Source of the DNA: a virus
Strand: one strand, 5' to 3'
DNA length: 38,568 bases
Virus record (IMG/VR): IMGVR_UViG_3300028283_000171
Coordinates: 1-38,568 of that record
A program made the position numbers and the translations under genes. The stretch's first letter is position 1; each line of letters begins with the position of its first letter. Below, one piece after another: positions 1,448-38,568 of the stretch. The notes beneath the pieces were generated by a model, which worked only from the letters and a program-made list of their open reading frames with translations, ran no database searches and was not told the origin of the DNA.

Positions 1448-2200
1448 TTAAAAATTACAAAATCTTAAAATTTTGTGTTCATTTAAGGAAAGGAAATCTT
1501 TTATTAAAAATTCTATCTTATTTTTATCTAAATAACTTATATTCAATAGTCTAATGTCGTTCTTTTTACAATATAATTTCTTTAATTCGTCTCTCTGTTG
1601 TATTATTTTAAAAGCTTCTTCGCCCCCAAATATATCATATGATGCAAAATGCTGTTCACCATCAAACTCTATACAAACGTTATAGACAGGAAGATAGAAA
1701 TCAAAAGATAAACAGTTCTTAAATTTTAAATCACAAAACTTTTTTTCTTGGATGAAATTTATATTAAATTTTTTGAGAATAATTCCAATTTCTCTCTCAC
1801 CCTTGGACTCACTACAAATTGGACAGCCTTGTTTTCTATTTACGTGATCTCTTGGTTTTTGTGGAAAATCTCCGTGTTCTGGACAATTTATGATAACTTT
1901 TATTCTACCAGTGATGTAATCTACTTTATCGTAATTATATTTATCACCATGTATAATTCTAGCTTTTCTTATGAAATCTTCTTTTGTATCTGTAATTTTT
2001 TCTAGTGCACAATATTTACATCCTCTTTTTTTATGTGTATGTGAATGTAAAGTCATATGAAATGGACCGTGTTTTGGACAAATAATATCAACATAATCGT
2101 TCATAGATTTATGTTTTTTTATCAAAGAATAATCATAGGCATTATTATGAATTTTATTTGCTTTATCTATAATATCTTGTAAATTGTTTCTCTTAGACAT
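1448..2200 (-). CDS. Free-standing homing-type endonuclease (zinc ribbons plus PD-(D/E)XK-like nuclease)
   Basis: The 250-aa protein has two zinc-ribbon repeats. The first uses C41-x2-H44 and C61-x2-C64, the second C106-x2-H109 and C126-x2-C129; each begins with a CPxHG signature of the DUF723 type. A C-terminal nuclease core follows (SFDFYLP at 166-171, IEFDGEQH at 177-184), like Vsr/PD-(D/E)XK enzymes. This arrangement is typical of selfish endonucleases next to conserved phage genes, and here it follows the capsid gene. I start it at 2200 because the 14 upstream codons run into the capsid terminator. A TTAATATATA motif lies only 5 bases before this ATG, so the transcript may be nearly leaderless, or the motif may not be its promoter. 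Confidence 0.8.
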   Translation of the reverse strand: MSKRNNLQDIIDKANKIHNNAYDYSLIKKHKSMNDYVDIICPKHGPFHMTLHSHTHKKRGCKYCALEKITDTKEDFIRKARIIHGDKYNYDKVDYITGRIKVIINCPEHGDFPQKPRDHVNRKQGCPICSESKGEREIGIILKKFNINFIQEKKFCDLKFKNCLSFDFYLPVYNVCIEFDGEQHFASYDIFGGEEAFKIIQQRDELKKLYCKKNDIRLLNISYLDKNKIEFLIKDFLSLNEHKILRFCNF

Positions 2201-2205
2201 ACAAT

Positions 2206-2215
2206 TATATATTAA
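2206..2215 (-). promoter_or_regulatory. TTAATATATA motif before the endonuclease
   Basis: This is the same decamer as at other late units, but only 5 bases separate it from the ATG instead of the usual 18-25. It may be fortuitous or give a nearly leaderless mRNA. Confidence 0.3.
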
Positions 2216-2230
2216 AAAATAAGAACAAAA

Positions 2231-2262
2231 AAAGACCCCCAATCACATTGTCGGGGGTCTTT
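2231..2262 (-). terminator. Rho-independent terminator of the capsid gene
   Basis: A perfect 10-bp stem (AAAGACCCCC at 2231-2240, GGGGGTCTTT at 2253-2262) with a 12-base loop is followed on the minus strand by a T-run. It ends transcription about 40 bases after the capsid stop codon and before the endonuclease ATG, so the endonuclease would need its own promoter. Confidence 0.93.
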
Positions 2263-2303: not shown

Positions 2304-4055
2304 TTAGATAAGTACACCGTTTGTGTCGGTAACTTTAATAGCCATAAATTGCTTCTCGGGAAAGAATCCGATATCAGCTACTGCATATCTTGATCTTATT
2401 AACATGCGTGGTGCCCATGTAGCTTCTGAAATTAAGCTGATAGACTGAGCCATCAAATAAGGGATAAAGAGAAGACCTGGTTGGTCAACTGAGTTCTTTC
2501 TTCCTAAATAGATGTAGTTATCATCCCATCTCATGTAAGGATCTACATAGATTGCGATTTGTCCAACATTACCCATTGGGTAGAGTTGTCCGTTGGTGTT
2601 CAACTTACCAGCGTTAACTGGGTTGATTGTATAACCAGCGATATCTTGGATAACGGAAGCTAAGTTACCGTTTGTTACCAAATATTGAGCTGGTCCTATT
2701 CTACCATCTGTTGCGATGAAGTTAGAGGCATTGTTCAATTTAGCGATAAGCTTTCTTTGAACTGAGTGAGTTGTTTCACCCATACCTGTACCAAGGTGTG
2801 TTAAGTAATCATCAACGTTTAAGTCGAATTTGGATGTTACACCATCAACGGCCTTAGGAGCTGTGTAAGAAACTCTGTTCTTAAGAGCGAGGTTTCTAAT
2901 TTTACCAACGATTTCCTTAGAAATAACTTGGGTAAGTTCGTTAATAAGAACTCCTTCAAGTTTTTGAACGATATCCATACCAGTTGCGGCCTTGATATCT
3001 TCAATTTGGGTTCTCTTCAATGTTGAGGAGATTTCAATGTCACCAACTTGTACTGACTTGGTAAATACGTCAGGACCGATTACACCTGGGTAGGTTTTTT
3101 CATCTTGGTATCTGGTCATTGGACCTTCCCAACCATTTTCCATATTTGATTGCCAGCCTGCGCTGAAACCTGGAATGTGATCTTCGAGTAAGGATACTAA
3201 TTCAATTGAGAATGTAGCACCTGATGCTGTGATACCAGTTGTGGTTAAACCAGTTAAAGTAGCAATACCTGATGCTAAATAATCAGTAATTGCTCCAGTT
3301 TGTGGGAATGTATTGAGAGCTGCGTCCCAAATATTTCCTGTTCCTGATGCGTCTTGTGGAACTAATGATCCAACTGAGAAGCCAGCTTGTCTGTAAATTC
3401 TGAACATTGGGTGTCCATCAATTCTGGAGAATCCTAAGAATTCCATCCAGTTTGTGTAAGTTACAGGAGGTGTAGAGAAATAAGTTACTGCTCCACCTGC
3501 ACCAATATGTACCCAACATCTCTTGGTTAAACCACCAACTCTTTCTTGAATGCTCAATAAATTGAGTTGTAATTGGATAGCTTGTTTTAAAAGTAAATCT
3601 GTAGCTGTGCTAGTTGTTTTTACTTTGAAAACTAATGGTCTTTGTCTTGCTTCAGCGTCCTCACGGATACCATCACCATAAGCATTGTCATACTTAAAGT
3701 CAACAAAGAGTAATTCGATTCTTGGAGAAGCAGTTGGTTTAACAGCTACTAAGTCCAAACCGATAGTTTGAGCGGCAATCTTCATTGCTACTGGGAGTAA
3801 GTTTTGAGCTACGTCACCTGAACCAATTGTTCCATCAGCTTGCCAAGTTGCACCTGGAATTGTGGAGATTACTGGAGCAAGAACTCTACCCATACCATTT
3901 TGATTTAATGTGGCATAACCAACATTTTCATTCATCTGATGCATTTCTGCATACTCGGACATCCATGCTCTTTTTTCATCATCAACTACTCTGAGAGCGT
4001 CTAAGATTGGTGCCCATTTTTTCATTGCTTTCGCACTGTCAACTATAAAATTCAT
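2304..4055 (-). CDS. 23: Major capsid protein, T4 gp23-like
   Basis: This 583-aa protein forms the hexameric capsid lattice. Several blocks match T4 gp23 as I remember it. GDIEISSTLKRTQIEDIKAA with the following GMD and EL..VIS.EI corresponds to the gp23 E-loop/helix region. The C-terminal block with WAPRMLIRSRYAVA corresponds to the strand near the gp23 C-terminus. T4 gp23 is cut by gp21 after about residue 65; the best matching place here is after MNE (residue 43), before N-V-G-Y-A-T, so the first 43 residues may be a removable delta-domain. It is a single-gene unit with its own promoter motif and a strong terminator. GC at its third positions looks higher than in neighbouring genes, as expected for a highly expressed protein. 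Confidence 0.93.
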   Translation of the reverse strand: MNFIVDSAKAMKKWAPILDALRVVDDEKRAWMSEYAEMHQMNENVGYATLNQNGMGRVLAPVISTIPGATWQADGTIGSGDVAQNLLPVAMKIAAQTIGLDLVAVKPTASPRIELLFVDFKYDNAYGDGIREDAEARQRPLVFKVKTTSTATDLLLKQAIQLQLNLLSIQERVGGLTKRCWVHIGAGGAVTYFSTPPVTYTNWMEFLGFSRIDGHPMFRIYRQAGFSVGSLVPQDASGTGNIWDAALNTFPQTGAITDYLASGIATLTGLTTTGITASGATFSIELVSLLEDHIPGFSAGWQSNMENGWEGPMTRYQDEKTYPGVIGPDVFTKSVQVGDIEISSTLKRTQIEDIKAATGMDIVQKLEGVLINELTQVISKEIVGKIRNLALKNRVSYTAPKAVDGVTSKFDLNVDDYLTHLGTGMGETTHSVQRKLIAKLNNASNFIATDGRIGPAQYLVTNGNLASVIQDIAGYTINPVNAGKLNTNGQLYPMGNVGQIAIYVDPYMRWDDNYIYLGRKNSVDQPGLLFIPYLMAQSISLISEATWAPRMLIRSRYAVADIGFFPEKQFMAIKVTDTNGVLI

Positions 4056-4132: not shown

Positions 4133-6556
4133 TTACCTTTGTAATCTTTTTAAATATGCTTCTATCTGATTATCACTAAGTTTGGTGTTATCAAATTTGT
4201 TATTACTTTCTTTTAACAAAGTCACCTTACCCATGTTTTTCTTTGCATATTCATGGAGATTTCTACTATTCCAGAAACTTTCCATTTTTTCCTCAGTCAA
4301 GTTTGTATAGAATTGTGCGCTACTTAAAATACTACCTTGTACTTCTGGTTTTAAGCTCTCCCAAATAGGTCTAAGATCGGCAGGGAGATTGTCGATCAAT
4401 GTTTCATTAAAGCTTCTTTCGGCTGTGGTTAATGCCTTAGCCATAATTGTTAACACTTCATTCTCGTTTGTATAATATTTGCTTTCGTTCATTGCAACTA
4501 CTACTTTTTCTTTATCTTCTTGTGAAAGGTTGTAATAAGCAGCCTTTTTTCTTTCAGATAAAAATTCTAAGAAATGAGGATTGTTGTCTTTAGAGGCCTC
4601 ACGTTTTTTGGACTCATTTATTTGCTTTAAGATCAATTTCTTTAATGTGTTTTCTGAATCATAAATTCTGTCACCAATGATTGATAACCTAGATTCTTGG
4701 ATTTCTTGAACTTCGCCAGTATCAGATAATTTAACAACAGCGATTCCATTATCAGCATTCATAGCTAAAATTTCACCTGTTTTATCATCATCTATTTTCA
4801 CAACTTGACCTGGAGTTAATTCAGATTTACTTTCCTCATCTTGGATTTCTTGTGCATTTACTCCTTCTACGTCAATATCCTCATCCTCTTCACCTTCAAG
4901 ACCTTGAGCCTGACCCTGAACTTGACCTTGGGCTTGTGCCTGTGGTTGTGCTCCTGGTTGTGCTTGACCTTGTGCTTGTGCTGGTTGAGCTTGAGTCATA
5001 TCATCCATAGTTTCGTCTTCATCGTAATATTTCGCAACTGAATCAGTTTTAAAATTACCCATTTTTTGTTCTGGTGAATCGATACCTTCTTTTATCATGG
5101 TTCCTTTTGAATTTAGTTTTTCAGCGATATACTTATTGTATTCGATGTTTTTATCTATTGCTTCAGCTAAATAATTACCGTAAGCGATGTTGTCTGTTAA
5201 ATTTTCAGCGATGTATTCTGAATACTTAATACTGTTATCAAGTTGTTCACCTACATATTCTGTGTATTTAATACTGTTATCAACGTGTTCGGCGATATAT
5301 TCAGCATATTTGATATTGTTATCAACATGTTCTGCAATGTATTCAGCGTACTTAATGTTGTTATCAACGTGTTCTGCGATGTATTCTGCGTAAGCGATAT
5401 TCTTTTCAAGATTCTCAGCTACATATTGTGAATAATCAATAGATTTATCAAGATTTTCAGCAATGTATTCTGAGTATTTGATAGTATTATCAACATTTTC
5501 AGCAATGTATTCTGAGAAATCAATTGATTTGTCTAATGTTTCAGCGATGTAATTTGCGTAATCGATAGATTTATCTACGGCTTCTGCAACGTATTCTGTG
5601 TAGTTAATTGCTTTTTCGAGCTCACCGGCTAAATAGTCGTTGTGTTCGATAATTTTCTCAGTCTTGTCTTTAGTTCTTTCCAATCTGAGTTCTAACTTTT
5701 CGTTGGTTTTTTTAATCTTTTTGTTTTCTTGGACTACTACCTGCATCGTTTCTGCTAAGTAATCAAGATAGGAGGCTATTTTCTGGAAGCCTTCTTGGAA
5801 GGAATCATACTTCTCATATAAATCATTCAACTTGGCTGGATCAAAGTCGCCCTTTGTAACGGCTTCATTGATTTCACTTTTTGCTTTTGTGATTTGGTCT
5901 GTTAAATAATTCGAGTACTTTTCCATCTGTTCTTTTGTTACAAATTCATTTTTATCCATATTGAACAAATCGTTTATTTTTGACTCGTCGGATATATCAT
6001 ATATCCTAAAGTTAGCACTCTCATTGAATCCCAACGATTCATTGATTGTGCGGAGTTCCATTTTAGCAGAACTAAATCCGGGATCAGCCACTGCATCATA
6101 GGTAAAAAGTTTTTTAATAGTTACTTCGCCATTAGACTCTGTTATACCTGCGGCGCGTGATGAAACAAAAATAGGGCATCCATCATCTATCAGCGCTTGG
6201 GCTTCTTTACCCCAGTGAGTATTTAGTAATCTAATTTCACCATCTACTCTATTCTTTTCTTTTACAAAAAAAGCACTTTCAACTGTATGAGATACCCTGC
6301 CTAAACTAGTATCAAAAACATCTGGATGATCAAATTCCCCATATACCACACCCAGTGTTTTCTTTCTCTCTAATAATTCTTCTAAATGGGGCAAAAATCT
6401 ATCAGCTTGATATATCCTGTCATTTCTATTTTTCACATTAAACTCTGTGAAAATACCACCAAGGATATACTGACGCTTCCCGGACGGAGCGACAGCTTCA
6501 TTTATTTTTTTTAAACCATTAATAGAATTTTCAACAATAAGAACGTTTTTTATCAT
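4133..6556 (-). CDS. 21: Fused prohead protease (gp21-like) and scaffold protein
   Basis: This 807-aa protein joins two jobs that T4 splits between gp21 and gp22. Residues 28-170 are the protease: NRNDRIY at 43-49, GEFDHP with the probable catalytic His77, FVSSR with Ser132/133, and YDAVADPGF (153-161) with the Asp. Residues 200-305 look coiled-coil. Residues 305-482 form about twelve 14-residue repeats. A Gln/Ala/Pro-rich linker (about 515-560) follows, then a small basic/acidic domain starting LTPGQVVKI and a helical tail. LKKINE-A near residue 20 fits the gp21 self-cleavage rule. The scaffold would line the prohead interior and be digested on maturation. A late-promoter motif lies 24 bases upstream; no clear terminator follows. 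Confidence 0.88.
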   Translation of the reverse strand: MIKNVLIVENSINGLKKINEAVAPSGKRQYILGGIFTEFNVKNRNDRIYQADRFLPHLEELLERKKTLGVVYGEFDHPDVFDTSLGRVSHTVESAFFVKEKNRVDGEIRLLNTHWGKEAQALIDDGCPIFVSSRAAGITESNGEVTIKKLFTYDAVADPGFSSAKMELRTINESLGFNESANFRIYDISDESKINDLFNMDKNEFVTKEQMEKYSNYLTDQITKAKSEINEAVTKGDFDPAKLNDLYEKYDSFQEGFQKIASYLDYLAETMQVVVQENKKIKKTNEKLELRLERTKDKTEKIIEHNDYLAGELEKAINYTEYVAEAVDKSIDYANYIAETLDKSIDFSEYIAENVDNTIKYSEYIAENLDKSIDYSQYVAENLEKNIAYAEYIAEHVDNNIKYAEYIAEHVDNNIKYAEYIAEHVDNSIKYTEYVGEQLDNSIKYSEYIAENLTDNIAYGNYLAEAIDKNIEYNKYIAEKLNSKGTMIKEGIDSPEQKMGNFKTDSVAKYYDEDETMDDMTQAQPAQAQGQAQPGAQPQAQAQGQVQGQAQGLEGEEDEDIDVEGVNAQEIQDEESKSELTPGQVVKIDDDKTGEILAMNADNGIAVVKLSDTGEVQEIQESRLSIIGDRIYDSENTLKKLILKQINESKKREASKDNNPHFLEFLSERKKAAYYNLSQEDKEKVVVAMNESKYYTNENEVLTIMAKALTTAERSFNETLIDNLPADLRPIWESLKPEVQGSILSSAQFYTNLTEEKMESFWNSRNLHEYAKKNMGKVTLLKESNNKFDNTKLSDNQIEAYLKRLQR
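5111..5644 (-). repeat. About twelve tandem 42-bp repeats encoding Y-x-E-Y-I-A-E units
   Basis: The scaffold part of the fused protein has units of exactly 14 residues with consensus YxEYIAExxDxxIx, from HNDYLAGELEKAIN (residue 305) to YNKYIAEKL (ending near 481). Two adjacent units, YAEYIAEHVDNNIK, are identical in protein. The periodicity is kept at the protein level with scattered DNA differences, so the array is old or under selection. Each unit contains [IV]-A-E, which fits the T4 gp21 cleavage rule. Confidence 0.95.
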
Positions 6557-6673: not shown

Positions 6674-8497
6674 TTAAAATGTAGGTGCTTGACCACCACC
6701 GCCTTGTGCTGGTGGGGCTTGTCCACCGCCCTGTGGTGGTGCTTGACCGCCTTGTGCACCGCCTTGTGCTCCTCCTTGAGCGCCGCCTTGTGCACCTCCG
6801 AATTGTGCTCCGCCGCCTGCTTGTGCTCCACCACCAAATTGAGCGCCGCCACCCATTTCAGCTCCACCTCCGAAGCCACCGCCTCCACCGAAGCCACCGC
6901 CTCCGCCACCAAATTCACCGCCACCAGCTTCACCTTCTGCTGCACCAGCTCCGCCCATTCTTTGACGTTCTAAAGCTTTATATTTATTGTTTTCTTCAAT
7001 ATCAGCGTCAGTAAATTTCATAATATGACGAACAATCCATTCAATACTTAAATAAGGTTTACCTTCAGCGTCTTGCAAAGATGAACTCAAAGTACTAGCA
7101 ATAGTTGCTCTTTCATTCATATTTTTTAAATGACGCCATTCTTCAAACATCGTATCAGAAATAAATTCCAATTTAAGAGCGTTATTAAAATCAATATCGT
7201 CTTTCAATTCTGGGAAATCCAAAATCATTTGAATCTTCAAAGGCTTAACTAAAATTTCTTTGAAAATTGTTCTAATTCTACAAATGAAATTCTTAAATTT
7301 AACTTCATCTCTTGTAATAGCTGCACTTGAATCATAAGCATATGAACCACCGCCATTATCTTCATCAAATCTTTGGAATGGTAATTTACTTGCTCTTTTT
7401 AAGATTTTATAAAACCATTGAAGAACAATATCTTCATTTAAATTTACTTGTGTTGGTTGTAAGATTTCAATATTTGGTGTTCCTGCAGTTCCATCTGGAA
7501 ACCAGAAGTCCTTGCTAAAAGGAATATTAGTTTGTCCATTAATAGATACAGTTCCCATTCTTTCATCCCATTGAACATCATCATGATATTCACTCATTAG
7601 TTCATAAATTTGTTGCTCAGCTTGTTGACGAGTTAACCCCCCTACTGGGATAACAAACTTTTTATAAATTGATGCTTGGTTAATATTATAAAGTAATCTT
7701 GCCTGCTCAATCATTTTTAACTGGTTGAAAGGTCTAATTAAATTTTCTACGTAAGAAGTTTCTCCGTATTCATTATTGTTAGAATAAGAAATATAAATAA
7801 TCTGCGAATCTAATAATATTCTTCTAAGAGCTGGATTATCAGGATGTTGAATCCATATCATTGTATTTGTATTTGGATCTGTAGCAACAATAAGAGTAAT
7901 AGGATCGATTGGTGCTAAGTCAATAATAGTTTTTTGTTTATCATCGTAGACTATTTCATATGAAATATAACCGTCTATAAGAAGATTTTTTAAATAATTC
8001 CAAGCAATTTGACCTTCGTTAAAATTAAAAGTATTTATAAGTTTGGAGAAATTTTCTTGATATTTTTGTCTTATAGTTTGTTCATAATTATCAGGTAAAT
8101 CTTTTACAAAACAGAATCTATTATTTTCGTCGTAAATTATACATTCATCCGCGATTTGCGTAATGAAATCTTTTATTTCATCTTTAATAGAATATTGTCT
8201 GAGAATTTTTCTTTTATCTAAATATGTTCTATCAAGATAAGCGATTGATTTTTTATCTAAGAATCTAGCGATAGTTTTCTTTGTAAATAAATCATACATA
8301 TTTGAACTATTAGGTTGGTAAAGAACATCTGTTGTTTCTTCATGTACACCAATAGAATAAGCATTTCTAATACGCATATCGTTATATTCTAATCCACCAA
8401 ACATAGTGGATAATCCTCTTAATATTCTGTTAAATAAACCAAAATTTGTTGTATTTGTTTGATTTTGATTTCCTCTATATCTATCATAGCTTGCCAT
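6674..8497 (-). CDS. 20: Portal vertex protein, T4 gp20-like
   Basis: This 607-aa protein forms the dodecameric ring for DNA entry and exit and starts prohead assembly. Its order of elements follows gp20: an N-terminal wing region with ADECIIYD; IDPITL near 197-202; LKMIEQARLLY (260-270); IYKKFVIPVGGLTRQQAEQQ (277-296) with the following LMSEYH; and DFWFPDGTAG (330-339). A helical stem follows with PFQRFDED (373-380). The last 80 residues (about 528-607) are a low-complexity Gly/Gln/Ala/Pro tail absent from T4 gp20. A late-promoter motif lies 22 bases upstream and a terminator follows. A shuffled partial copy of its middle part lies at 32837-33418. Confidence 0.92.
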   Translation of the reverse strand: MASYDRYRGNQNQTNTTNFGLFNRILRGLSTMFGGLEYNDMRIRNAYSIGVHEETTDVLYQPNSSNMYDLFTKKTIARFLDKKSIAYLDRTYLDKRKILRQYSIKDEIKDFITQIADECIIYDENNRFCFVKDLPDNYEQTIRQKYQENFSKLINTFNFNEGQIAWNYLKNLLIDGYISYEIVYDDKQKTIIDLAPIDPITLIVATDPNTNTMIWIQHPDNPALRRILLDSQIIYISYSNNNEYGETSYVENLIRPFNQLKMIEQARLLYNINQASIYKKFVIPVGGLTRQQAEQQIYELMSEYHDDVQWDERMGTVSINGQTNIPFSKDFWFPDGTAGTPNIEILQPTQVNLNEDIVLQWFYKILKRASKLPFQRFDEDNGGGSYAYDSSAAITRDEVKFKNFICRIRTIFKEILVKPLKIQMILDFPELKDDIDFNNALKLEFISDTMFEEWRHLKNMNERATIASTLSSSLQDAEGKPYLSIEWIVRHIMKFTDADIEENNKYKALERQRMGGAGAAEGEAGGGEFGGGGGGFGGGGGFGGGAEMGGGAQFGGGAQAGGGAQFGGAQGGAQGGAQGGAQGGQAPPQGGGQAPPAQGGGGQAPTF

Positions 8498-27384: not shown

Positions 27385-28494
27385 ATGATTCTAAATATTG
27401 AGAGCCAAACAGAACTTTCAGGATTCTACGTAGTTTACAATCGAACTGTTATCAACGAAAAAGAAGGAATATACGGCATATCACATTTAATAGAACACTT
27501 GATGAGTCATAATTTCAATGATACTTTAGTAGAAGAGTTCCAAAATTCAGGGTTAGCTTGGAATGCGTACACTTCACCAACTAATATAGTATTCTATTTA
27601 AGTGGTTTAGATAAATACGTTACCAAATATAAATATAAGTTTTTAAATAAGTTATCAAAAATAAACATAGAACAAAAAGATTTCGAATTAGAGAAAACTG
27701 TTCTTCTCGAAGAGTACACGTCTATATTCAATATGCAAAGTCCTTCACATCTTTTAAATTTGTATAGAAAGAAATTGAACTCTTATAATTCAATAGGAAA
27801 AAAGAAAGATATAGAGAAAATAACATTAGATAATTGTAAAGAATATTTTAACATATATTATAGTAAACCTTCTAAAATTATCAATGTTTCCAAAAATAAT
27901 CCTTTTGTGTCTGATATAGAATTTAACGATTTTAAAAATGATTATTATTACAATTATACTAATGGTTCTAATAAAGATATCGATAAACATAAAAGTCTTT
28001 TAAATAAATCATCAATAATATACTTATCACCAGTAATAGAAGATAACTGGGCCACCGTGTTTTTTATAAATTATTTGTTATCAAATGGTATCAGTTCTCC
28101 TTTATATAAAAATATAAGAAAAAAAGCAGGATTGGCTTATTATATAAGATGTACAGTAGATAGATTAAGTGATTATTCTGGAATTAATATAATATCAACC
28201 GAAACAGATGACGATAAAGTTGATAAATTAATGTTACTTTTAGACGAAACTTTATCAGATTTAAGTTTCTTGACAAAATCTAAATTTGATCAGGTTAAAA
28301 ACTCAATAATTAATAAAATTGATACAGTAGATATAAACAGACATAGTAATGTTGAAACCTATATAAAACCAGAAACTTGGGCAATAGAGAATAATATTCA
28401 CGATATAACATTAGATAAAGTAATAGAAACTTATAAAAAATATTACAATGTTGATAACTTCTATAAAAGTGTAGATAAAAGAGAATTTATGTAA
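27385..28494 (+). CDS. M16-family zinc peptidase
   Basis: The 369-aa protein has the inverted zinc motif HLIEH at 34-38 (HxxEH) inside ISHLIEHLM, followed by the distal Glu in LEKTVLLEEY (102-111), as in pitrilysin/insulinase/MPP enzymes. The C-terminal half carries RKKAGLAYYIR, the Arg/Tyr site of the second M16 domain. At 369 residues it is one M16 A+B half-unit, like bacterial PqqL-type or MPP-beta-like peptidases, and may dimerise. No signal peptide is seen, so it would be cytoplasmic or packaged. Its promoter matches the late type, which hints at a role in assembly or lysis-phase host control. An earlier ATG at 27378 opens only a 7-codon frame. Confidence 0.85.
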   Translation: MILNIESQTELSGFYVVYNRTVINEKEGIYGISHLIEHLMSHNFNDTLVEEFQNSGLAWNAYTSPTNIVFYLSGLDKYVTKYKYKFLNKLSKINIEQKDFELEKTVLLEEYTSIFNMQSPSHLLNLYRKKLNSYNSIGKKKDIEKITLDNCKEYFNIYYSKPSKIINVSKNNPFVSDIEFNDFKNDYYYNYTNGSNKDIDKHKSLLNKSSIIYLSPVIEDNWATVFFINYLLSNGISSPLYKNIRKKAGLAYYIRCTVDRLSDYSGINIISTETDDDKVDKLMLLLDETLSDLSFLTKSKFDQVKNSIINKIDTVDINRHSNVETYIKPETWAIENNIHDITLDKVIETYKKYYNVDNFYKSVDKREFM

Positions 28495-32132: not shown

Positions 32133-32534
32133 ATGACGATGAAGAAACTTATTTTATCTATTTTATTTGCTTTAATAATATCAATTGCTCAATCGGCTAA
32201 ACCTTTTAGTGGTGGTATTGTTGTTATTGAGAGAGAACATTTTGATCAATACGGATATTCAAAAATATATGATTGTGATAAATGGGCGGAAATAAAAACA
32301 GAAAATTGTAACGTTGAAATTTATATGAAAATAAATCCAGGTAATATTGATTTTATGGTTAAATCTGATGCTTTTGGATATAAAATATTTTTATACGATA
32401 TATTTGGAAGAAAATTGATGGAGCAAGATTTAAAATGTAAAACAACAATTAAGAAAGAAGGATTGACTAATGGATTATATCTTATAAAAATAACAGACGG
32501 AACACAAGTATTCACAAAGAGAATAAATTTATAA
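32133..32534 (+). CDS. Secreted protein with type IX secretion (T9SS) C-terminal sorting domain
   Basis: The 133-aa protein has a clear signal peptide: Lys-Lys, then LILSILFALIISIAQS (5-21), with a likely cut near SA-K. The last 60 residues have the pattern of the T9SS type A sorting domain: YKIFLYDIFGRKLMEQ (83-98), GLTNGLYLIKITDGTQVFTK (110-129), ending in RINL. In Bacteroidota this domain takes proteins through the outer membrane and is often followed by anchoring. The stretch between (about 24-70) is short and has no known enzyme domain, so the cargo may be small. A start two codons later (MKK) is possible. It has a late-type promoter motif. Confidence 0.82.
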   Translation: MTMKKLILSILFALIISIAQSAKPFSGGIVVIEREHFDQYGYSKIYDCDKWAEIKTENCNVEIYMKINPGNIDFMVKSDAFGYKIFLYDIFGRKLMEQDLKCKTTIKKEGLTNGLYLIKITDGTQVFTKRINL

Positions 32535-32971: not shown

Positions 32972-33418
32972 TTAATATGGAATATTTGTATTATTATCTT
33001 CGTTCCAATTTTCTTCACCGTAAGGATCTAAATCAGAATAAACCCTATTAATAGGTGTTTCTCCGAATGTATCTAATCCGCCATCACCTGCCCACTCAAC
33101 ATCTTCGTGGTACTCACTCATTAACTTTTTTATCTGATCTTCAGCTTCTTCTCTTGATAAACCGTTAACAGGAATAGTGAATTTTCTCACCTTTGGTCCT
33201 TCATAAGTCGAATTCCAATCTATTTTATCATCACCATCATATTCATGTATATCTTTTTTTACATCAATAGTCTTCTTAACAAATAAATCATACATATTAC
33301 TATGTAAAGCATTATAAGCTTTAGGAATTTCCATAATGGCTTCACCCAAAGGTGAAATAATAGGTTCCTTTTCTTTTTTAATAATTCCCATCTTCTTTAG
33401 AATATCTTTTATTTTCAT
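32972..33418 (-). CDS. Truncated, rearranged portal-like ORF
   Basis: The 148-aa product is built from portal pieces. Residues 34-51 (AYNALHSNMYDLFVKKTI) match portal 46-76 with a short deletion. Residues 77-109 (VRKFTIPVNGLSREEAEDQI and LMSEYHEDVEW) match portal 278-310, the likely clip-domain part. Residues 143-148 (NTNIPY) match portal 322-327, where a TAA now ends it. About 226 portal residues between the first two blocks are missing. An inserted LDPYGEENW (130-138) is a motif shared with unrelated ORFs. It overlaps the RNase H stop (ATGA) and has an AGGAGGT Shine-Dalgarno sequence, so it may well be translated. Decoy, regulator or dead gene are all possible. Confidence 0.75.
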   Translation of the reverse strand: MKIKDILKKMGIIKKEKEPIISPLGEAIMEIPKAYNALHSNMYDLFVKKTIDVKKDIHEYDGDDKIDWNSTYEGPKVRKFTIPVNGLSREEAEDQIKKLMSEYHEDVEWAGDGGLDTFGETPINRVYSDLDPYGEENWNEDNNTNIPY

Positions 33419-34380
33419 AAGTTTACCTCCTTTTTCATTAATTTATATAAATGCGGTGGCATAGACGTTTCATCCAACTTCACTAAAGTCAAATTTCTTG
33501 TTAATCTATCACTCATCATTTCGTTCATGCTATTATCTTTTAGTCTTTTATATAGTTTTATATGATCTATAATTCTATCTCTAAACTCGATTGAGTTAAA
33601 ATCAATAGGTTCAGAATGTGTTTCTTTATATGTGTCGTATATTTTAAGAATTCCACTTTTACCTATACCTCTATCACCTTTCATATAAACTGATTTGATA
33701 TTATCTTTGTTGTGTCCCATTATTTTCATAAAGAGTTCTAATTCAGAATTAATAAGAGAAGTCTTTCTCGTTCTTGTAAAATTATCAAGAAATGAAAGAA
33801 ATTCAGTTTCATTATTATCTTCAAACATATCGTCAACGTAAGTGTCCTTTACATATTTTGTGAAAATTTGATAGTGTTCGGGTATAAATACTCTATCATC
33901 AGTCATCTTATAGTTATACATTATATTAATATATCTCTTATCTAGGTCGTAATTAATAAGTTGTAAAAGGTCACTATCGTTAGACATTAAGAAATTTGAT
34001 TGTCCTTTGTTATTGAGGGTCTTCATGACGTAGGCGATAAGATCGTCGCCTTCGAGATTTTCCATTTGGAATTGTACGCAGTTCTTTTTAGTTTTGAGAT
34101 ATTCTTTAAGTTTAGTATATTCACCGAATACGAAGTCCCAATCTACTTTATCGTCTCGTTTTCTTGTCCCTTTGTATCCTTCGAAAAATTCTTTTCTCCA
34201 GTTTCTAAAACTATCTGATATGAAGTATATTTTATCGAAAGGGTATAATTTTGTAAGTGTGTGGTAATCTCTTTCTATAACGTTGTATAATTCTGATACT
34301 AATATTTTATTCTTGTGAAGTATGTGAACAGATTTCATTAATAAAAAATTTCCGTCCACGACGAGATTCAATTTGATCAT
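33415..34380 (-). CDS. rnh: FEN-family 5'-3' exonuclease / RNase H, T4 Rnh-like
   Basis: The 321-aa protein removes RNA primers and flaps during lagging-strand synthesis. The FEN/PIN-like acidic site is visible: VVDGNF with Asp9, ISDSFRNWRKEFFEGYKGTR with Asp56, ENLEGDDLIAY with Glu110, Asp112 and Asp113, and MSNDSDLLQ with Asp135 and Asp137. A helix-hairpin block KGDRGIGKSG follows near 235-244, as in flap nucleases. Length is close to T4 Rnh (305 aa). A late-type motif lies 18 bases before its ATG, which is unexpected for a replication gene. Its last codons encode the Shine-Dalgarno sequence of the portal-like ORF. Confidence 0.88.
   Translation of the reverse strand: MIKLNLVVDGNFLLMKSVHILHKNKILVSELYNVIERDYHTLTKLYPFDKIYFISDSFRNWRKEFFEGYKGTRKRDDKVDWDFVFGEYTKLKEYLKTKKNCVQFQMENLEGDDLIAYVMKTLNNKGQSNFLMSNDSDLLQLINYDLDKRYINIMYNYKMTDDRVFIPEHYQIFTKYVKDTYVDDMFEDNNETEFLSFLDNFTRTRKTSLINSELELFMKIMGHNKDNIKSVYMKGDRGIGKSGILKIYDTYKETHSEPIDFNSIEFRDRIIDHIKLYKRLKDNSMNEMMSDRLTRNLTLVKLDETSMPPHLYKLMKKEVNL
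33425..33430 (-). promoter_or_regulatory. Unusual strong Shine-Dalgarno sequence
   Basis: Minus-strand GGAGGT lies 6 bases before the ATG of the portal-like ORF. Almost all other genes here have A-rich leaders without such a site. It overlaps codons of the RNase H C-terminus (KKEVNL). Confidence 0.6.
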
Positions 34381-34398
34381 TTTGTAGTTTTTTTAATT

Positions 34399-34408
34399 AT
34401 ATATCATT
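34399..34408 (-). promoter_or_regulatory. Putative late promoter ATGATATATA for RNase H
   Basis: Minus-strand ATGATATATA ends 18 bases before the RNase H ATG. It differs from the consensus at the third position. Confidence 0.4.
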
Positions 34409-34424
34409 TTTGATTTTTAAAGTT

Positions 34425-34434
34425 TAATATATAC
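34425..34434 (+). promoter_or_regulatory. TTAATATATA motif in divergent region
   Basis: Plus-strand TTAATATATA is 54 bases before the endonuclease start. The divergent pair of motifs with RNase H resembles the arrangement at 27311-27361. Confidence 0.35.
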
Positions 34435-34488
34435 TTTATGTTATAATAGATGGTATTTATTTATTGTAAGAAAAAATAATTATAAATT

Positions 34489-35610
34489 GTGATAAAAGAT
34501 AATCGAATGGTAAATGTTAAAGTTGAAAAAAGGACTTTGGAACATTATTCCAAATTTGGAGAAATAAAAAACAATCATATAAATATAGAAGTTAAAAATT
34601 TATATAAAAGTTCAAAAGAAAAAATTGTTGTTGAATGTGATATTTGTCATATAGAAAAAACAATAATATTTTCATATTATTATAATAATGTACAGAATGG
34701 TGGATATTACACTTGTATAAAATGTAAAGATATTAAATCAAAAAAAACGCATATGAAAAAATATGGCAAATTCTTTAATAATAGAGATAAGTGTAAAATA
34801 ACAAATCTTGAAAAATATGGATGTGAAAATGTTTCTAGTTCACAATTAATCAAAGATAAGAAAAAAGAAACTAACTTAAAAAATTGGGGGGTTGAAAATG
34901 TTTTTCAATCGGATATTATAAAAGACAAATTGAAGCAAACTTGTTTAGATAAATACGACGTGGAGCATCCATTACAAAATGATGAATTATTTGAAAAATC
35001 GAGGAAAACATGTTTTATGAATAATGGGGTAGAATATCCAATGCAATCTGATAAAGTTATGAAAACCATGATGGATAATAATTTAGAAAAATATGGCAAA
35101 GAGTTTTATACTCAGACAGATAAATATAAGAATGATGTTAAGATAAGTAATACTGATAAATATGGAACTGAATGGTATATGTCATCTAAAGAATTCAAAA
35201 ATAAATCAAAAATTACTAATATGGAAAAATACGGCGTAGAATATAATATGCAGAATGAAAAAATATATATGAAAGCACAAATTAATGGATTTAAAGCAAA
35301 AATTCATAAGATGGCGGGTCTTTTTTACAGAGGAGAAAATGAAAATGATTTTTTAAACATGTGTTATGATAAAAATATCAAAATAAAACAAGGATTAAGA
35401 TTCTCTTACATATTTGATGGAAAAAATAGATTTTATTTTAGTGATTATTTTTTCCCAGAAAAAAATCTTATAATAGAAATTAAAAGTAGTTATTATTATA
35501 AAAAATATTACGATATGAATATAGAAAAAATGAATAGTGTTATAAAAGAAGGGTATGCTTTCATCTTTATAATTGATAAAAATTATCAGGAATTTAATAA
35601 TTATATATAG
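34489..35610 (+). CDS. Homing-type endonuclease with helical DNA-binding repeats
   Basis: The 373-aa protein has an N-terminal zinc finger (C50-x2-C53, C76-x2-C79). About eight 23-residue repeats follow (87-266), with units such as NLEKYGCENVSSSQLIKDKK (106-125) and NLKNWGVENVFQSDIIKDKL (129-148), ending each time in K-x-T or similar. A C-terminal PD-(D/E)XK-like nuclease contains FSDYFFPEKNLIIEIKS. The repeats probably track along DNA. It is one of three selfish endonucleases here and sits between RNase H and the 641-aa gene. It uses a GTG start; an ATG six codons later (34507) is an alternative. Confidence 0.78.
   Translation: MIKDNRMVNVKVEKRTLEHYSKFGEIKNNHINIEVKNLYKSSKEKIVVECDICHIEKTIIFSYYYNNVQNGGYYTCIKCKDIKSKKTHMKKYGKFFNNRDKCKITNLEKYGCENVSSSQLIKDKKKETNLKNWGVENVFQSDIIKDKLKQTCLDKYDVEHPLQNDELFEKSRKTCFMNNGVEYPMQSDKVMKTMMDNNLEKYGKEFYTQTDKYKNDVKISNTDKYGTEWYMSSKEFKNKSKITNMEKYGVEYNMQNEKIYMKAQINGFKAKIHKMAGLFYRGENENDFLNMCYDKNIKIKQGLRFSYIFDGKNRFYFSDYFFPEKNLIIEIKSSYYYKKYYDMNIEKMNSVIKEGYAFIFIIDKNYQEFNNYI
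34747..35286 (+). repeat. Eight approximately 69-bp repeats in the endonuclease gene
   Basis: Repeats of about 23 residues have consensus N-x-E-K-Y-G-x-E-x-x-x-Q-[ST]-x-x-x-K-x-K-x-K-x-T. They are diverged in DNA. They correspond to a DNA-reading helical array known in phage endonucleases of this kind. Confidence 0.8.
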
Positions 35611-35614
35611 ATTC

Positions 35615-37540
35615 ATGATTACGAAATACAATATTTTTGAGAGTGTCGATGGATGGATCGATCTTCTTGATTATTTAAATGAAAATGATTTAAAAAATTT
35701 AAATAAAGTAACTGACGCGTATAAATACCGTGATAGTATTGATAATAATATCGCTGTAAAAGAACATTTATCATATATGTTAAAAGGAAAACTTATAAAG
35801 ATTCATTATGATAATAATTATATAGAAGGAGAAGTGCCTTCTGAAATTAGTTTCGGATCAAATCAACCATTCATTAACATTAGTAATAAAGAAGATCGTC
35901 TTATGAGATTTAGAACTATTGATTTTTGTACAAATCCGAATATGATTCAGGTTTACTCTGAAATTGAAAAAAAACCAAGAGTGAGATGGTTTAAGCACGG
36001 TAAATTACAAAATGATACTTTAAATGAATACGTCGAATTTGTACCAGTTAAATACGAGTACGGTGGTTATTATGGAGGCAAAGATGTTTTTAGATTACAA
36101 AATTACGCCAAAATGGCCAGGATAGGGTTATTACAGAATTTCCTCAAAAGTGGCGATTGGTATAGAATAAGGTTCAATGATTATAAGCATATTGTTATTA
36201 AAATAGAACAAATTAGATACGGTGGTGATGTAGTATCGATAGGATATTTTATGGAATATAATAAAGGGGAAATTCGTGGATCAAAAAATGGACATAGTGT
36301 TATAGTTATAGATACATGGAAAGACGATAGAGATATAGTAATTGAACACATAGAACCAATGGATAATATATTAAATAGGAGAAAATTCAGAGAATTAAAT
36401 ATACAAGTTGGTGATAATGTTAAAGTTTCAAATCCTGGTTTAGAAGATAAGATATTTAAGATAACTAGTGTGAATAAAGAAGAACATAGTTATTTTTCCA
36501 AATCATGGACTGTTTCATATCCAGAATTAACAAAGAAAAATCATAAAATATTACCAATAGATATAGTTGAAAATTTAGGAAGAGATTTGATTAATAAAGA
36601 ACTAGATCCTTATGGTGAAGAAGTATGGGAAAGTAAAAAAAGTAAGAAAAGAAACGCTACTAGAATAAAAATGGCTGAGATAGATCCTTACGGTGAAGAA
36701 GACTGGGGATGGGACGTCAAAATAAATGACGACGACTTTAAAGACAAATATATAGTCTTCAAAAAGAAGTTTTTAGGTAGTTACGATTATTATTTTGCTT
36801 TTTTAACGAGTCATTATCAAATACTTTCCTTTGGGGGATCACAAGATTTGAACATAATTAAAAAACATCAAGTTTTATCACCTATATCAGAAAGAGAAAT
36901 AGAAAGAATTAAAAAAGATAAAATAGAATTAGTGCCTTATCATTGGGTAGGAAAATATAGTAAAAACGAGTTCGGAAATTCAGAAAGAATGCCATATTCA
37001 TCACTCAAAAAAGATGTTCTATTTCTAGATCAAGATTATATGGATAATTATTTATATATGAATGAGTCTGTTAACGAAGAATACGTCGAATTTAATAAAA
37101 CAGGTGAAGAATTGGAATTAAAACGTTGGCATAATTATTTTGAAGATTATATAGTTCCTTTTTTAAGAAAAGGTGAATGGTACAGAATAATATGTGAAAT
37201 ACCATATGATAAAAATGATTACGATGTACTTGAACGACCAGGAAAAGAAAATAAACTTATCACTAAAAGAAGAAAGAAAATGTTGTTATATGTTTTTAGA
37301 TTCCATTCTACTCATAGTGATTGGGCATGGGATATAATACAATGTGATAGAATGTACAAACATGGTGAGATCGAAGAAGTCAACCCATTCAAAGATTATA
37401 TACAAATGGATAGATTAAGAAATTATCAAAATGTAAAAATTCAACACATAGTCAATCCAGAGATAAATAGAAAAAGAGAAGAGATGAGATTGAGATTACA
37501 CCCTAACGATCCATACGGAGAGGAGGAATGGAATGATTAA
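35615..37540 (+). CDS. Hypothetical 641-aa protein with internal repeats and three DPYGEExW motifs
   Basis: I do not recognise a family. The start at 35615 follows the endonuclease stop by 4 bases; an upstream in-frame start at 35573 would overlap it and adds no conserved sequence. The N-terminus MITKYNIFESVDGW recalls a capsid-targeting sequence. Two related blocks, EYVEF with a later KSGDWYRIRF (first half) and EYVEF with RKGEWYRIIC (second half), show an internal duplication. DPYGEEVW and DPYGEEDW lie between the halves, and DPYGEEEW is almost at the C-terminus. The layout looks like two or three short genes fused. The last motif's codons supply a GGAGG-like ribosome site for the next gene. 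Confidence 0.72.
   Translation: MITKYNIFESVDGWIDLLDYLNENDLKNLNKVTDAYKYRDSIDNNIAVKEHLSYMLKGKLIKIHYDNNYIEGEVPSEISFGSNQPFINISNKEDRLMRFRTIDFCTNPNMIQVYSEIEKKPRVRWFKHGKLQNDTLNEYVEFVPVKYEYGGYYGGKDVFRLQNYAKMARIGLLQNFLKSGDWYRIRFNDYKHIVIKIEQIRYGGDVVSIGYFMEYNKGEIRGSKNGHSVIVIDTWKDDRDIVIEHIEPMDNILNRRKFRELNIQVGDNVKVSNPGLEDKIFKITSVNKEEHSYFSKSWTVSYPELTKKNHKILPIDIVENLGRDLINKELDPYGEEVWESKKSKKRNATRIKMAEIDPYGEEDWGWDVKINDDDFKDKYIVFKKKFLGSYDYYFAFLTSHYQILSFGGSQDLNIIKKHQVLSPISEREIERIKKDKIELVPYHWVGKYSKNEFGNSERMPYSSLKKDVLFLDQDYMDNYLYMNESVNEEYVEFNKTGEELELKRWHNYFEDYIVPFLRKGEWYRIICEIPYDKNDYDVLERPGKENKLITKRRKKMLLYVFRFHSTHSDWAWDIIQCDRMYKHGEIEEVNPFKDYIQMDRLRNYQNVKIQHIVNPEINRKREEMRLRLHPNDPYGEEEWND
36605..36706 (+). repeat. 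Two DPYGEExW-coding copies 54 bases apart
   Basis: Copies at 36605-36628 and 36683-36706 encode DPYGEEVW and DPYGEEDW. Further copies lie at 37508-37531 and 38341-38364, and on the minus strand at 33005-33028. Codons differ between copies at several third positions. Confidence 0.85.
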
Positions 37541-38132
37541 AGAATTCAGTAAATATAACTTTACGGACTTTATCAAAAGTTTAAATATAAACTTTAATGA
37601 TTTTAATTTATCTGACGATAATTTTAATCATAAATCTGATATTCACGGTATTAATCATACATTTAGAGTTATGTTCAATTGTCTTATGATTGGTAATGAA
37701 ATAGGGGACAAAATTAATACTAAAAGAGCATTTATGGCTGCATTTGTTCACGATATGGCAAGAAGAAACGACGATAATTGTAAAGTACACGGAAGAGACG
37801 CATCGATAGAAAAATTACCACTCTTTAAAGAACTCTTTATTAAAAATGGTATGAATGAAGAAGATTTAAAAGTTATAAAAGTAGCTATATCTAATCATTC
37901 AGAAAAATATGAAATAGAGAAGGAGAATCCATATTGGCAAACAGTTTCTATATTAAGAGACGCTGATGGTTTAGATTTATGTAGATTAGATTACGAAGTA
38001 AAACCACATAAATTGAGAAATAAGGAAAGTGTAGAATTAATAGATAAAGCTGAGGAATTATTTTTAAAAACAGAATGGAAAAAATATAATAGATTTTCAG
38101 ACTTCTTAAAAGACAATATAAACAATGATTAA
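37533..38132 (+). CDS. HD-domain phosphohydrolase
   Basis: The 199-aa protein has the HD metal-binding pattern. The first His is in HGINHTF (38 or 42), the His-Asp pair is in FVHDMAR (73-74), VHGRDA (85-90) follows, then ISNHSEKY (122) and the distal Asp in LRDADGLD (142-148). It is likely a nucleotide or cyclic-nucleotide hydrolase; the H-x-x-x-H and D-A-D-G combination resembles small HD proteins acting on (p)ppGpp-like or dNTP substrates. It overlaps the preceding gene by 8 bases and the next by 8 bases, so translation is coupled. It could deplete host signalling nucleotides, by inference only. Confidence 0.85.
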   Translation: MIKEFSKYNFTDFIKSLNINFNDFNLSDDNFNHKSDIHGINHTFRVMFNCLMIGNEIGDKINTKRAFMAAFVHDMARRNDDNCKVHGRDASIEKLPLFKELFIKNGMNEEDLKVIKVAISNHSEKYEIEKENPYWQTVSILRDADGLDLCRLDYEVKPHKLRNKESVELIDKAEELFLKTEWKKYNRFSDFLKDNINND

Positions 38133-38568
38133 AGTAGGAGACATAGTTAAATGTATTCTTCCAGCGGGAATTTTAATACAGGATAAAATTTATATTATCA
38201 CTGGAAAAAATGGAGCGTTATGTTTTGTTAATGAAATTCAAGGCGGATGGCTTCCAAAAAGATTTGAAAAAATTGAAGGTGAAGAACTAGAAGAAATTAG
38301 AAAAAAACAAGAATTATTGAAATCTGTTCATATGCAAGATGATCCATATGGTGAAGAAAATTGGGTAGGTGAATCTAGACTATTAACAGAATTTAAAGAT
38401 CATAGTGTTTTACTTGATATTATTCACAATAATATTCTAAAAAGTGAAGCTGAATTTGGTTTGATAATTAAACCAGAAGACGCTGAATTAGAGAAAAAAG
38501 TTATTATGTCTGTATTTAATGATTATAAATTCAAGAAATGGAACGAATATTCCAACGATGAATATATG
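38125..38568 (+). CDS. Hypothetical protein, cut by window edge
   Basis: The 148 codons visible stay open to the edge. The first 45 residues look like a small beta-barrel (KVGDIVKCILPAGILIQDK, then IYIITG and WLPKRFE), close to SH3/KOW-like folds. An acidic helix follows, then DPYGEENW (73-80), then residues with a possible targeting-like GESRLLTEF (82-90). The overlap with the HD gene suggests a common operon. Function unknown. Confidence 0.7.
   Translation, partial: MIKVGDIVKCILPAGILIQDKIYIITGKNGALCFVNEIQGGWLPKRFEKIEGEELEEIRKKQELLKSVHMQDDPYGEENWVGESRLLTEFKDHSVLLDIIHNNILKSEAEFGLIIKPEDAELEKKVIMSVFNDYKFKKWNEYSNDEYM

Follow-up and report, generated by a model that had tools for sequence, protein, structure and literature searches.

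The octapeptide DPYGEExW, found in the viral record IMGVR_UViG_3300028283_000171 (positions 1 to 38,568; this whole stretch of 38,568 nucleotides is called the window below), is a real and strongly selected tag that recurs throughout the genomes of one lineage of very large phages and is undescribed in the literature searched. It is very likely a protein-level docking tag of some kind, a class that is well supported. We further infer that it is read by one receptor, that this receptor is phage-encoded and that the place of action is the assembling head. The whole statement, i.e., a lineage-private docking or sorting tag with one phage-encoded receptor and with head assembly or packaging included, is given a probability of about 0.4. 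An earlier note, made from the letters alone, had reported five copies in three open reading frames (ORFs), and all five proved exact:

33005-33028, minus strand: tag copy 1, DPYGEENW, near the C-terminus of ORF 32972-33418
36605-36628, plus strand: tag copy 2, DPYGEEVW, mid-protein
36683-36706, plus strand: tag copy 3, DPYGEEDW, mid-protein, 78 bases past copy 2
37508-37531, plus strand: tag copy 4, DPYGEEEW, with the stop codon two residues downstream
38341-38364, plus strand: tag copy 5, DPYGEENW, in ORF 38125-38568

That note understated the motif, which is genome-wide, private to its lineage and linked both to N-termini resembling the capsid-targeting sequence (CTS) of phage T4 and to pieces of head proteins. 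Among named genomes, the window is closest to that of the uncultured phage LR756501, which measures 735 kb, with 84.7% identity across 72% of a 5.6-kb query; the portal proteins of the two are identical over residues 1-514. When the motif was counted in this complete genome and in relatives, as had been suggested, LR756501 was found to hold 103 exact copies. Every one of them is in frame, and they are spread over 89 ORFs with at most four per protein. Exact copies of the DNA pattern numbered 35, 31, 23, 11, 18, 25, 14, 6, 15 and 7 in the IMG/VR contigs G001 to G010, respectively. The reversed DNA pattern gave no match in any of the 15 records searched, and ten shuffled-order versions of the motif gave neither exact nor one-mismatch copies in LR756501; hence, the tag is not a product of chance. 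An unbiased motif count ranked it as the top motif of LR756501, with 78 unrelated clusters vs 0.39 expected, and about 8% of the predicted genes are tagged (85/1,064). The ORFs were called mechanically, and the greedy overlap filter retained 99 of the 103 copies. A scan of IMG/VR returned 93 stretches and, among the 80 of these 93 that were listed, the matches were concentrated in few contigs. Over the window, LR756501 and 14 contigs, 294 of 299 DNA matches lay inside ORFs of at least 30 residues, the remaining five being in short or interrupted frames. The huge-phage paper, in which the 735-kb genome was reported, assigns its largest genomes to the Mahaphage clade, whose hosts are predicted to be Bacteroidetes (PMC7162821).

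Substitutions were counted in orthologue pairs carrying the tag on both sides, a choice that favours conserved tags. Between LR756501 and G001, tag codons showed 34 synonymous changes and a single non-synonymous one (203 codons), compared with 951 and 694 in the rest of the genes (5,050 codons). Between LR756501 and the other contigs the corresponding values were 51 and 5 (161 codons) and 877 and 2,454 (4,585 codons). Synonymous changes thus clearly prevail in the tag codons of these pairs. Besides, 52 of 54 copies occupy the same aligned place in orthologue pairs, and the tag was present on both sides of 50 reciprocal-best pairs and on one side only of 8. Near-misses are rare in LR756501, with ten sequences differing by one change (six at W, two at P and two at G) and two differing by two. 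The tag residues are therefore under selection while their surroundings vary, as in short linear motifs.

Information at the DNA level is limited to the motif codons and near flanks: it fades within about 30 nucleotides, and most third positions contribute little. Flanks are unrelated, with only one of 10,506 comparisons above 60% over 66 nucleotides. Ordinary gene duplication, with DNA homology extending well beyond the motif, is not what was observed; nor is a dispersed DNA repeat, since similarity does not pass the motif and the LR756501 copies are all in frame. As the earlier note had seen in five copies, the codons for Pro, Tyr, Gly and Glu vary, which is illustrated by 45 distinct 18-mers among 99 copies of LR756501 (49.6 expected for independent draws with genome codon usage). 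Two codons are nevertheless over-used, i.e., CCT (67% vs 34% genome-wide) and TAC (74% vs 36%), and therefore a shared DNA origin of the tag copies is indicated. The copies probably descend from an old common DNA source, followed by synonymous drift under protein constraint. The idea of a spreading mini-repeat survives only as this remote origin.

Position within the protein is free. Among the 103 copies of LR756501, 16 begin within the first 20 residues, 41 end at most five residues from the stop and 46 are internal. In the larger set of 294, 110 copies finish 0-5 residues ahead of the stop, 67 of them exactly two. An extended consensus can be written approximately as R-[IV]-[FY]-S-[ED]-[LIV]-DPYGEE-[DNE]-W-[ED]-[DE]. 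A structure model of a tagged family containing a piece of the major capsid protein (MCP), made from four IMG/VR sequences, shows a folded body (block means of 64-92) followed by a tail in which the tag lies at a predicted confidence (pLDDT) below 50, so that this tail is probably flexible as far as the model goes. For a protein tagged at its N-terminus, the AlphaFold model was of low quality over its whole length and uninformative. Fold searches with the MCP-piece model found nothing significant in the PDB or in viral libraries (best Z of 3.3, in a second look), which is no evidence of a new fold. Protein-level conservation, free position, unrelated bodies and the low-confidence tail make a short linear motif that binds a hub the best-supported class among those suggested earlier, whereas no support was found for a clamp or a protease as the partner.

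Most tagged proteins have no known family. Searches of 88 tagged LR756501 ORFs against Pfam and PHROGs identified enzymes (a CCA-adding enzyme fused to a deaminase, an acetyltransferase, a methyltransferase and a nucleotidyltransferase) and structural pieces (of the prohead protease, the sheath and a Gp23-like protein). Many tagged ORFs begin with a MIKKFKxFE-like sequence, which we take to resemble the T4 CTS. In LR756501 such an N-terminus was present in 24/86 tagged vs 58/978 untagged ORFs (odds ratio 6.1, p 2e-9), and the association was also significant in G001, G002, G004 and G005. Then, pieces of the phages' own MCP, protease-scaffold, portal and sheath proteins were found in 28/242 tagged vs 17/2,053 untagged short ORFs (odds ratio 15.7, p 2e-17, orthologous ORFs of related contigs being counted separately in this pooled value); LR756501 alone gave 7/74 vs 10/873 (odds ratio 9.0, p 1.4e-4). 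When 195 long LR756501 proteins served as potential donors, with the tags masked, partial matches were obtained for 40/242 tagged vs 117/2,053 untagged short ORFs. The leading donors of the tagged ORFs were the MCP (14), the protease-scaffold (5), a protein that we read, with no family hit, as having KOW/SH3-like repeats (5), a 333-residue protein (4), the sheath (4) and the portal (2). Four tagged ORFs, one of them in the window (32972-33418), join separate pieces (domain E <0.1); residue-shuffled ORFs gave two hits in all. For example, LR756501 48028-48549 consists of portal ~64-91, portal 279-313, the tag and portal 259-285, and G009 5581-6036 of protease 143-168, the tag, MCP 80-125 and a second tag. 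In the tagged protease pieces of LR756501 and G006, GELGYP or GQIGFP replaces GEFDHP and the VSSR stretch is missing; GEFDHP and VSSR are presumably the catalytic signatures of the protease. The tagged ORFs of the window and the intact head genes related to such pieces are:

32972-33418, minus strand: tagged ORF of 148 residues with a portal piece (profile hidden Markov model and alignment to the portal family)
33083-33190, minus strand: the portal piece, ORF residues 77-112 matching portal model ~278-313 (domain E=1e-10; coordinates derived from residue numbers)
35573-37540 (likely ATG at 35615), plus strand: three-tag ORF with no Pfam or PHROGs family
38125-38568, plus strand: one-tag ORF that runs off the window end
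6674-8497, minus strand: intact portal, untagged, the source family of the piece in 32972-33418 (phrog_213, E=1.7e-66)
4133-6556, minus strand: head maturation protease, untagged (phrog_207, E=4.3e-26)
2304-4055, minus strand: MCP, untagged (phrog_138, E=2.1e-22)

The motif had been described as inserted into the portal-like ORF. A portal piece does accompany the tag in the 148-residue ORF, but the real portal is a separate gene and carries no copy. The same ORF has a possible, weak second portal piece (model ~60-78, E=0.06), and its tag is conserved in the related LR756501 ORF 48028-48549. The product of 35615-37540 begins with MITKYNIFE, like a capsid-targeting N-terminus. Pieces of the protease-scaffold and of the MCP of the window were found in tagged ORFs of relatives. 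The portal segment ~265-338 was also seen as small untagged ORFs at G005 63585-64004, LR756502 316849, LR756500 255911 and LR756501 668797-669096. The protease at 4133-6556 (minus strand) is fused to some twelve repeats containing Y[IV]AE, a region that looks like a self-cleavable scaffold. A PDB sequence search with the protease returned only a designed helix bundle (E=0.25). Elsewhere in the window, homing-endonuclease-like ORFs lie beside the capsid gene (1448-2242, minus strand) and beside the tagged genes (34489-35610, plus strand), a peptidase M16-like ORF lies at 27385-28494 (plus strand), and the ORF at 32133-32534 (plus strand) matches a Por secretion C-terminal domain at the Pfam cut-off.

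Outside this lineage, the looser pattern DPxxEExW had no match in LR756504, LR756502, LR745206, LR756500, Lak-B4 or Sphingomonas phage PAU. The relative G004 uses a dialect, DP[YFL]xEExW, with 47 copies of DPxxEExW in which the third residue is mostly Y, F or L and the fourth mostly G, N or D. Bacterial and archaeal genome contigs gave only 35 single hits. Fifteen of these, counted by eye and mainly from lactobacilli, have the flanks IxIEDPYGEEDW, which we take to be a loop of enolase, and phage-type flanks were seen only in three near-identical 3.3-kb contigs from Bacteroidota bins. A host motif was rejected on these grounds. Single copies in G011 and G012, a pair at 39% GC, and in G013, with an enolase-like flank, were judged coincidental. 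An unbiased motif count on the last 16 residues, covering the first 400 kb of LR756502, LR745206 and LR756500, revealed other private tails: RK.RI in LR756504 (24 clusters vs 0.10 expected), RD.KI in LR756502 and LR745206 (17 and 27 clusters, 0.12 expected in each), NA..FG in LR756500 (7 vs 0.045) and E..IEW as a second tail of G004 (12 vs 0.011). In G004 80406-106064 the latter appears as a C-terminal EE[DN]IEW plus one residue, partly at gene overlaps, the following gene beginning within the tail. Dozens of ORFs in each of the 634-642 kb phages LR756504, LR756502 and LR745206 bear RKx[RK]I or RDxK[IL] tails, possible counterparts of the tag; R[KD]x[KR]I-type tails lie at most 12 residues from the stop in 64/75, 27/39 and 37/53 cases, respectively. 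Many ORFs of LR756500 and LR756504 begin with MKYIKEYEEF- or MKYLKxF-like sequences resembling the T4 CTS.

An invariant peptide that sits at the ends of unrelated, rapidly diverging proteins or in their linkers, is restricted to one lineage and changes its dialect is what would be expected of the docking tag of a single co-evolving receptor. Because the tag is lineage-private and its bacterial and archaeal hits are few and single, such a receptor is more probably encoded by the phage than a protein of the host that serves clients of its own. Head assembly or packaging is favoured by the links to CTS-like N-termini and head-protein pieces. The tag would thus act as a short linear motif, placed in linkers or flexible ends and read by one putative phage-encoded receptor that would gather about 90 unrelated, fast-evolving phage proteins at one place. 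That place would be the assembling head, and the tagged proteins would be packaged or virion-associated, perhaps delivered with the DNA as are the T4 internal proteins. The latter are described as diverse, with the CTS alone conserved, in the part of the T4 literature concerned (PMC3012670), and a large ejected protein mass is reported for giant phage heads (PMC7411985). Several observations weigh against this proposal. The association of tag and CTS-like N-terminus was not significant in G003 and G006, and none of the 24 ORFs of the LR756501 core structural block is tagged. Tagged enzymes such as the CCA-adding enzyme, or the membrane-type ORFs that make up 10/85 tagged ORFs in a crude hydropathy count, need not be virion proteins. 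Untagged head-protein pieces are also present, in LR756501 and in relatives without the tag, so the tag alone does not explain them. The C-terminal tails of the other phages avoid ORFs with the N-terminal signal in LR756502 (0/27, p 0.02) and LR745206 (0/37, p 0.04), and the link was not significant in LR756504 (2/64). In LR756501, by contrast, tag and signal go together (16/85 tagged vs 47/979 other ORFs, with the definition used for this comparison); the tails of the R[KD]x[KR]I type are thus perhaps no equivalents of DPYGEExW.

The links to CTS-like N-termini and head-protein pieces equally allow the main rival, decoy or interference adaptors, which is considered unlikely. According to this explanation, tagged head and sheath pieces bind virion proteins of rival phages or host defence sensors, and the tag hands the catch to a common effector. 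Defence systems can sense capsid or portal proteins, and the tagged ORFs do carry pieces of capsid, protease, portal and sheath proteins, including the protease piece and its G006 relative without the presumed catalytic signatures. A variable bait on a constant handle would also fit the MCP-piece family, which is 31-47% identical between contigs, compared with 78% for the intact MCP of G004 and the window. However, such pieces occur in only 28/242 tagged short ORFs, untagged ones exist too and the common effector is only postulated. Docking to another phage hub (a replication or transcription complex, a membrane site or a compartment), with head assembly not involved, is rather unlikely as well: the position-free motif on enzymes, membrane-type ORFs and proteins without known family speaks for it, but the links to CTS-like N-termini and head pieces speak against it. 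Nucleus import makes a weak variant, as the sections concerned on chimallivirus import describe the use of surface residues of folded cargo and no terminal signal (PMC12908238).

A role as degron or adaptor tag, read by a Clp-type unfoldase of the phage, is quite improbable, although LR756501, G004 and G008 encode such an unfoldase and a small tagged gene adjoins it at LR756501 352240-354745 and G008 35981-38229. The unfoldase also occurs in the three 634-642 kb phages with private tails, and none was found in LR756500. LR756501 gave no match to PF00574 (ClpP), which 12 of 14 control genomes matched, though a ClpP of the host could serve instead; LR756504, LR756502, LR745206, LR756500 and Lak-B4 have a ClpP match, unlike LR756501. 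Besides, the D2 region of its unfoldase lacks the [LIVM]G[FLIM] loop, which has a docking role, and neither the internal and N-terminal copies nor the conservation of the tags, which are not lost, suit a degron. Cleavage by the prohead protease at or beside DPYGEE is very improbable. Linker and near-terminal positions would suit it, and G-x-E, with G at P3, resembles the S/A/G-x-E sites of phiKZ-type giant phages. However, the Y[IV]AE of the phage's own protease-scaffold repeats follows the hydrophobic-x-Glu rule of T4-like cleavage sites, which DPYGEE does not match, seven fixed residues are more than such proteases need, and many copies lie only two residues from the stop. The passages on processing sites in PMC5694885 give SXE for phiKZ and AXE for SPN3US. 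Finally, a translated DNA or RNA element (mini-repeat, ribosome-binding or coupling signal) is hardly credible. The CCT/TAC bias suggests a common DNA origin, and in a G009 cluster the TGG-GAG-GA end doubles as GGAGG for the next gene. On the other side stand the frame (103/103), the low information at most third positions, the synonymous excess and the internal and N-terminal copies. Together with the unrelated flanks, the frame and the third positions led to rejection of a DNA element.

Next to nothing is known about the way in which phages with such large genomes keep hundreds of proteins organised. A single invariant tag, carried by about 8% of the predicted genes, offers a handle on a hub and groups many uncharacterised proteins in a common functional class. 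Were it a packaging signal, the sequence would suffice to predict the cargo of giant heads; were it instead a decoy or interference tag, it would mark a library-like weapon in phage-phage or phage-host conflict. More tentatively, the largest phages might run private address codes, in which each lineage tags dozens to about 100 unrelated proteins for a co-evolving phage receptor. These codes would comprise DPYGEExW in the 735-kb lineage, DP[YFL]xEExW and EE[DN]IEW in the relative G004, and R[KD]x[KR]I-type tails in the 634-642 kb phages. They might serve in loading or assembling large protein repertoires, including proteins pieced together from the phages' own capsid, protease, portal and sheath sequences. 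In keeping with the earlier note, which knew of no described function, literature searches covering motifs of huge phages, linear motifs of phages and decoys made of capsid fragments gave no description of the tag, and a search of 5.39 million PMC papers for the DPYGEE string, with subscription papers and supplements outside its scope, returned only one, an unrelated yeast peptide study. The main text of the huge-phage paper uses the word "motif" only once, on Shine-Dalgarno sites (PMC7162821).

Among known systems, the loop of enolase-like cellular sequences has the same eight letters in 15 of the 35 hits, but it is part of one folded enzyme, in single copy and with unlike flanks, and the likeness is taken as coincidence. 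Hub-binding short linear motifs, of which clamp-binding motifs are an example, are likewise position-free, strict in their key residues and placed in ends or linkers, which in the case of the tag are probably flexible. DPYGEExW differs from them in that the papers searched gave no known motif with its sequence, and in its presence on about 8% of one phage's predicted genes. A diverged, truncated and presumably inactive prohead-protease paralogue is described in the relevant part of the work on the giant Salmonella phage SPN3US (PMC5694885); here, the protease copy bears a tag and is one of many head-protein pieces. Encapsulin cargo-loading peptides, in the sections available on them, are short, lie at the C- or N-end of the cargo and dock inside an HK97-fold shell (PMC7355545). 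Of the 103 LR756501 copies of DPYGEExW, 57 lie near an end and 46 are internal; the tag has far more clients, and its receptor is so far putative. The T4 CTS, in the passages devoted to it, is a single short peptide conserved among phage proteins that are diverse in other respects (PMC3012670). The tag is likewise common to diverse proteins (78 unrelated clusters), and many tagged ORFs also begin with a CTS-like N-terminus. The CTS is an N-terminal peptide of 10-20 residues that takes its protein into the prohead and is cut off by the prohead protease, whereas only 16/103 LR756501 copies of the tag begin in the first 20. DPYGEExW further differs from the CTS in being acidic-aromatic and lineage-private, in having no set position at the N-terminus and in its numbers, with up to four copies in one protein and about 90 proteins that carry it.

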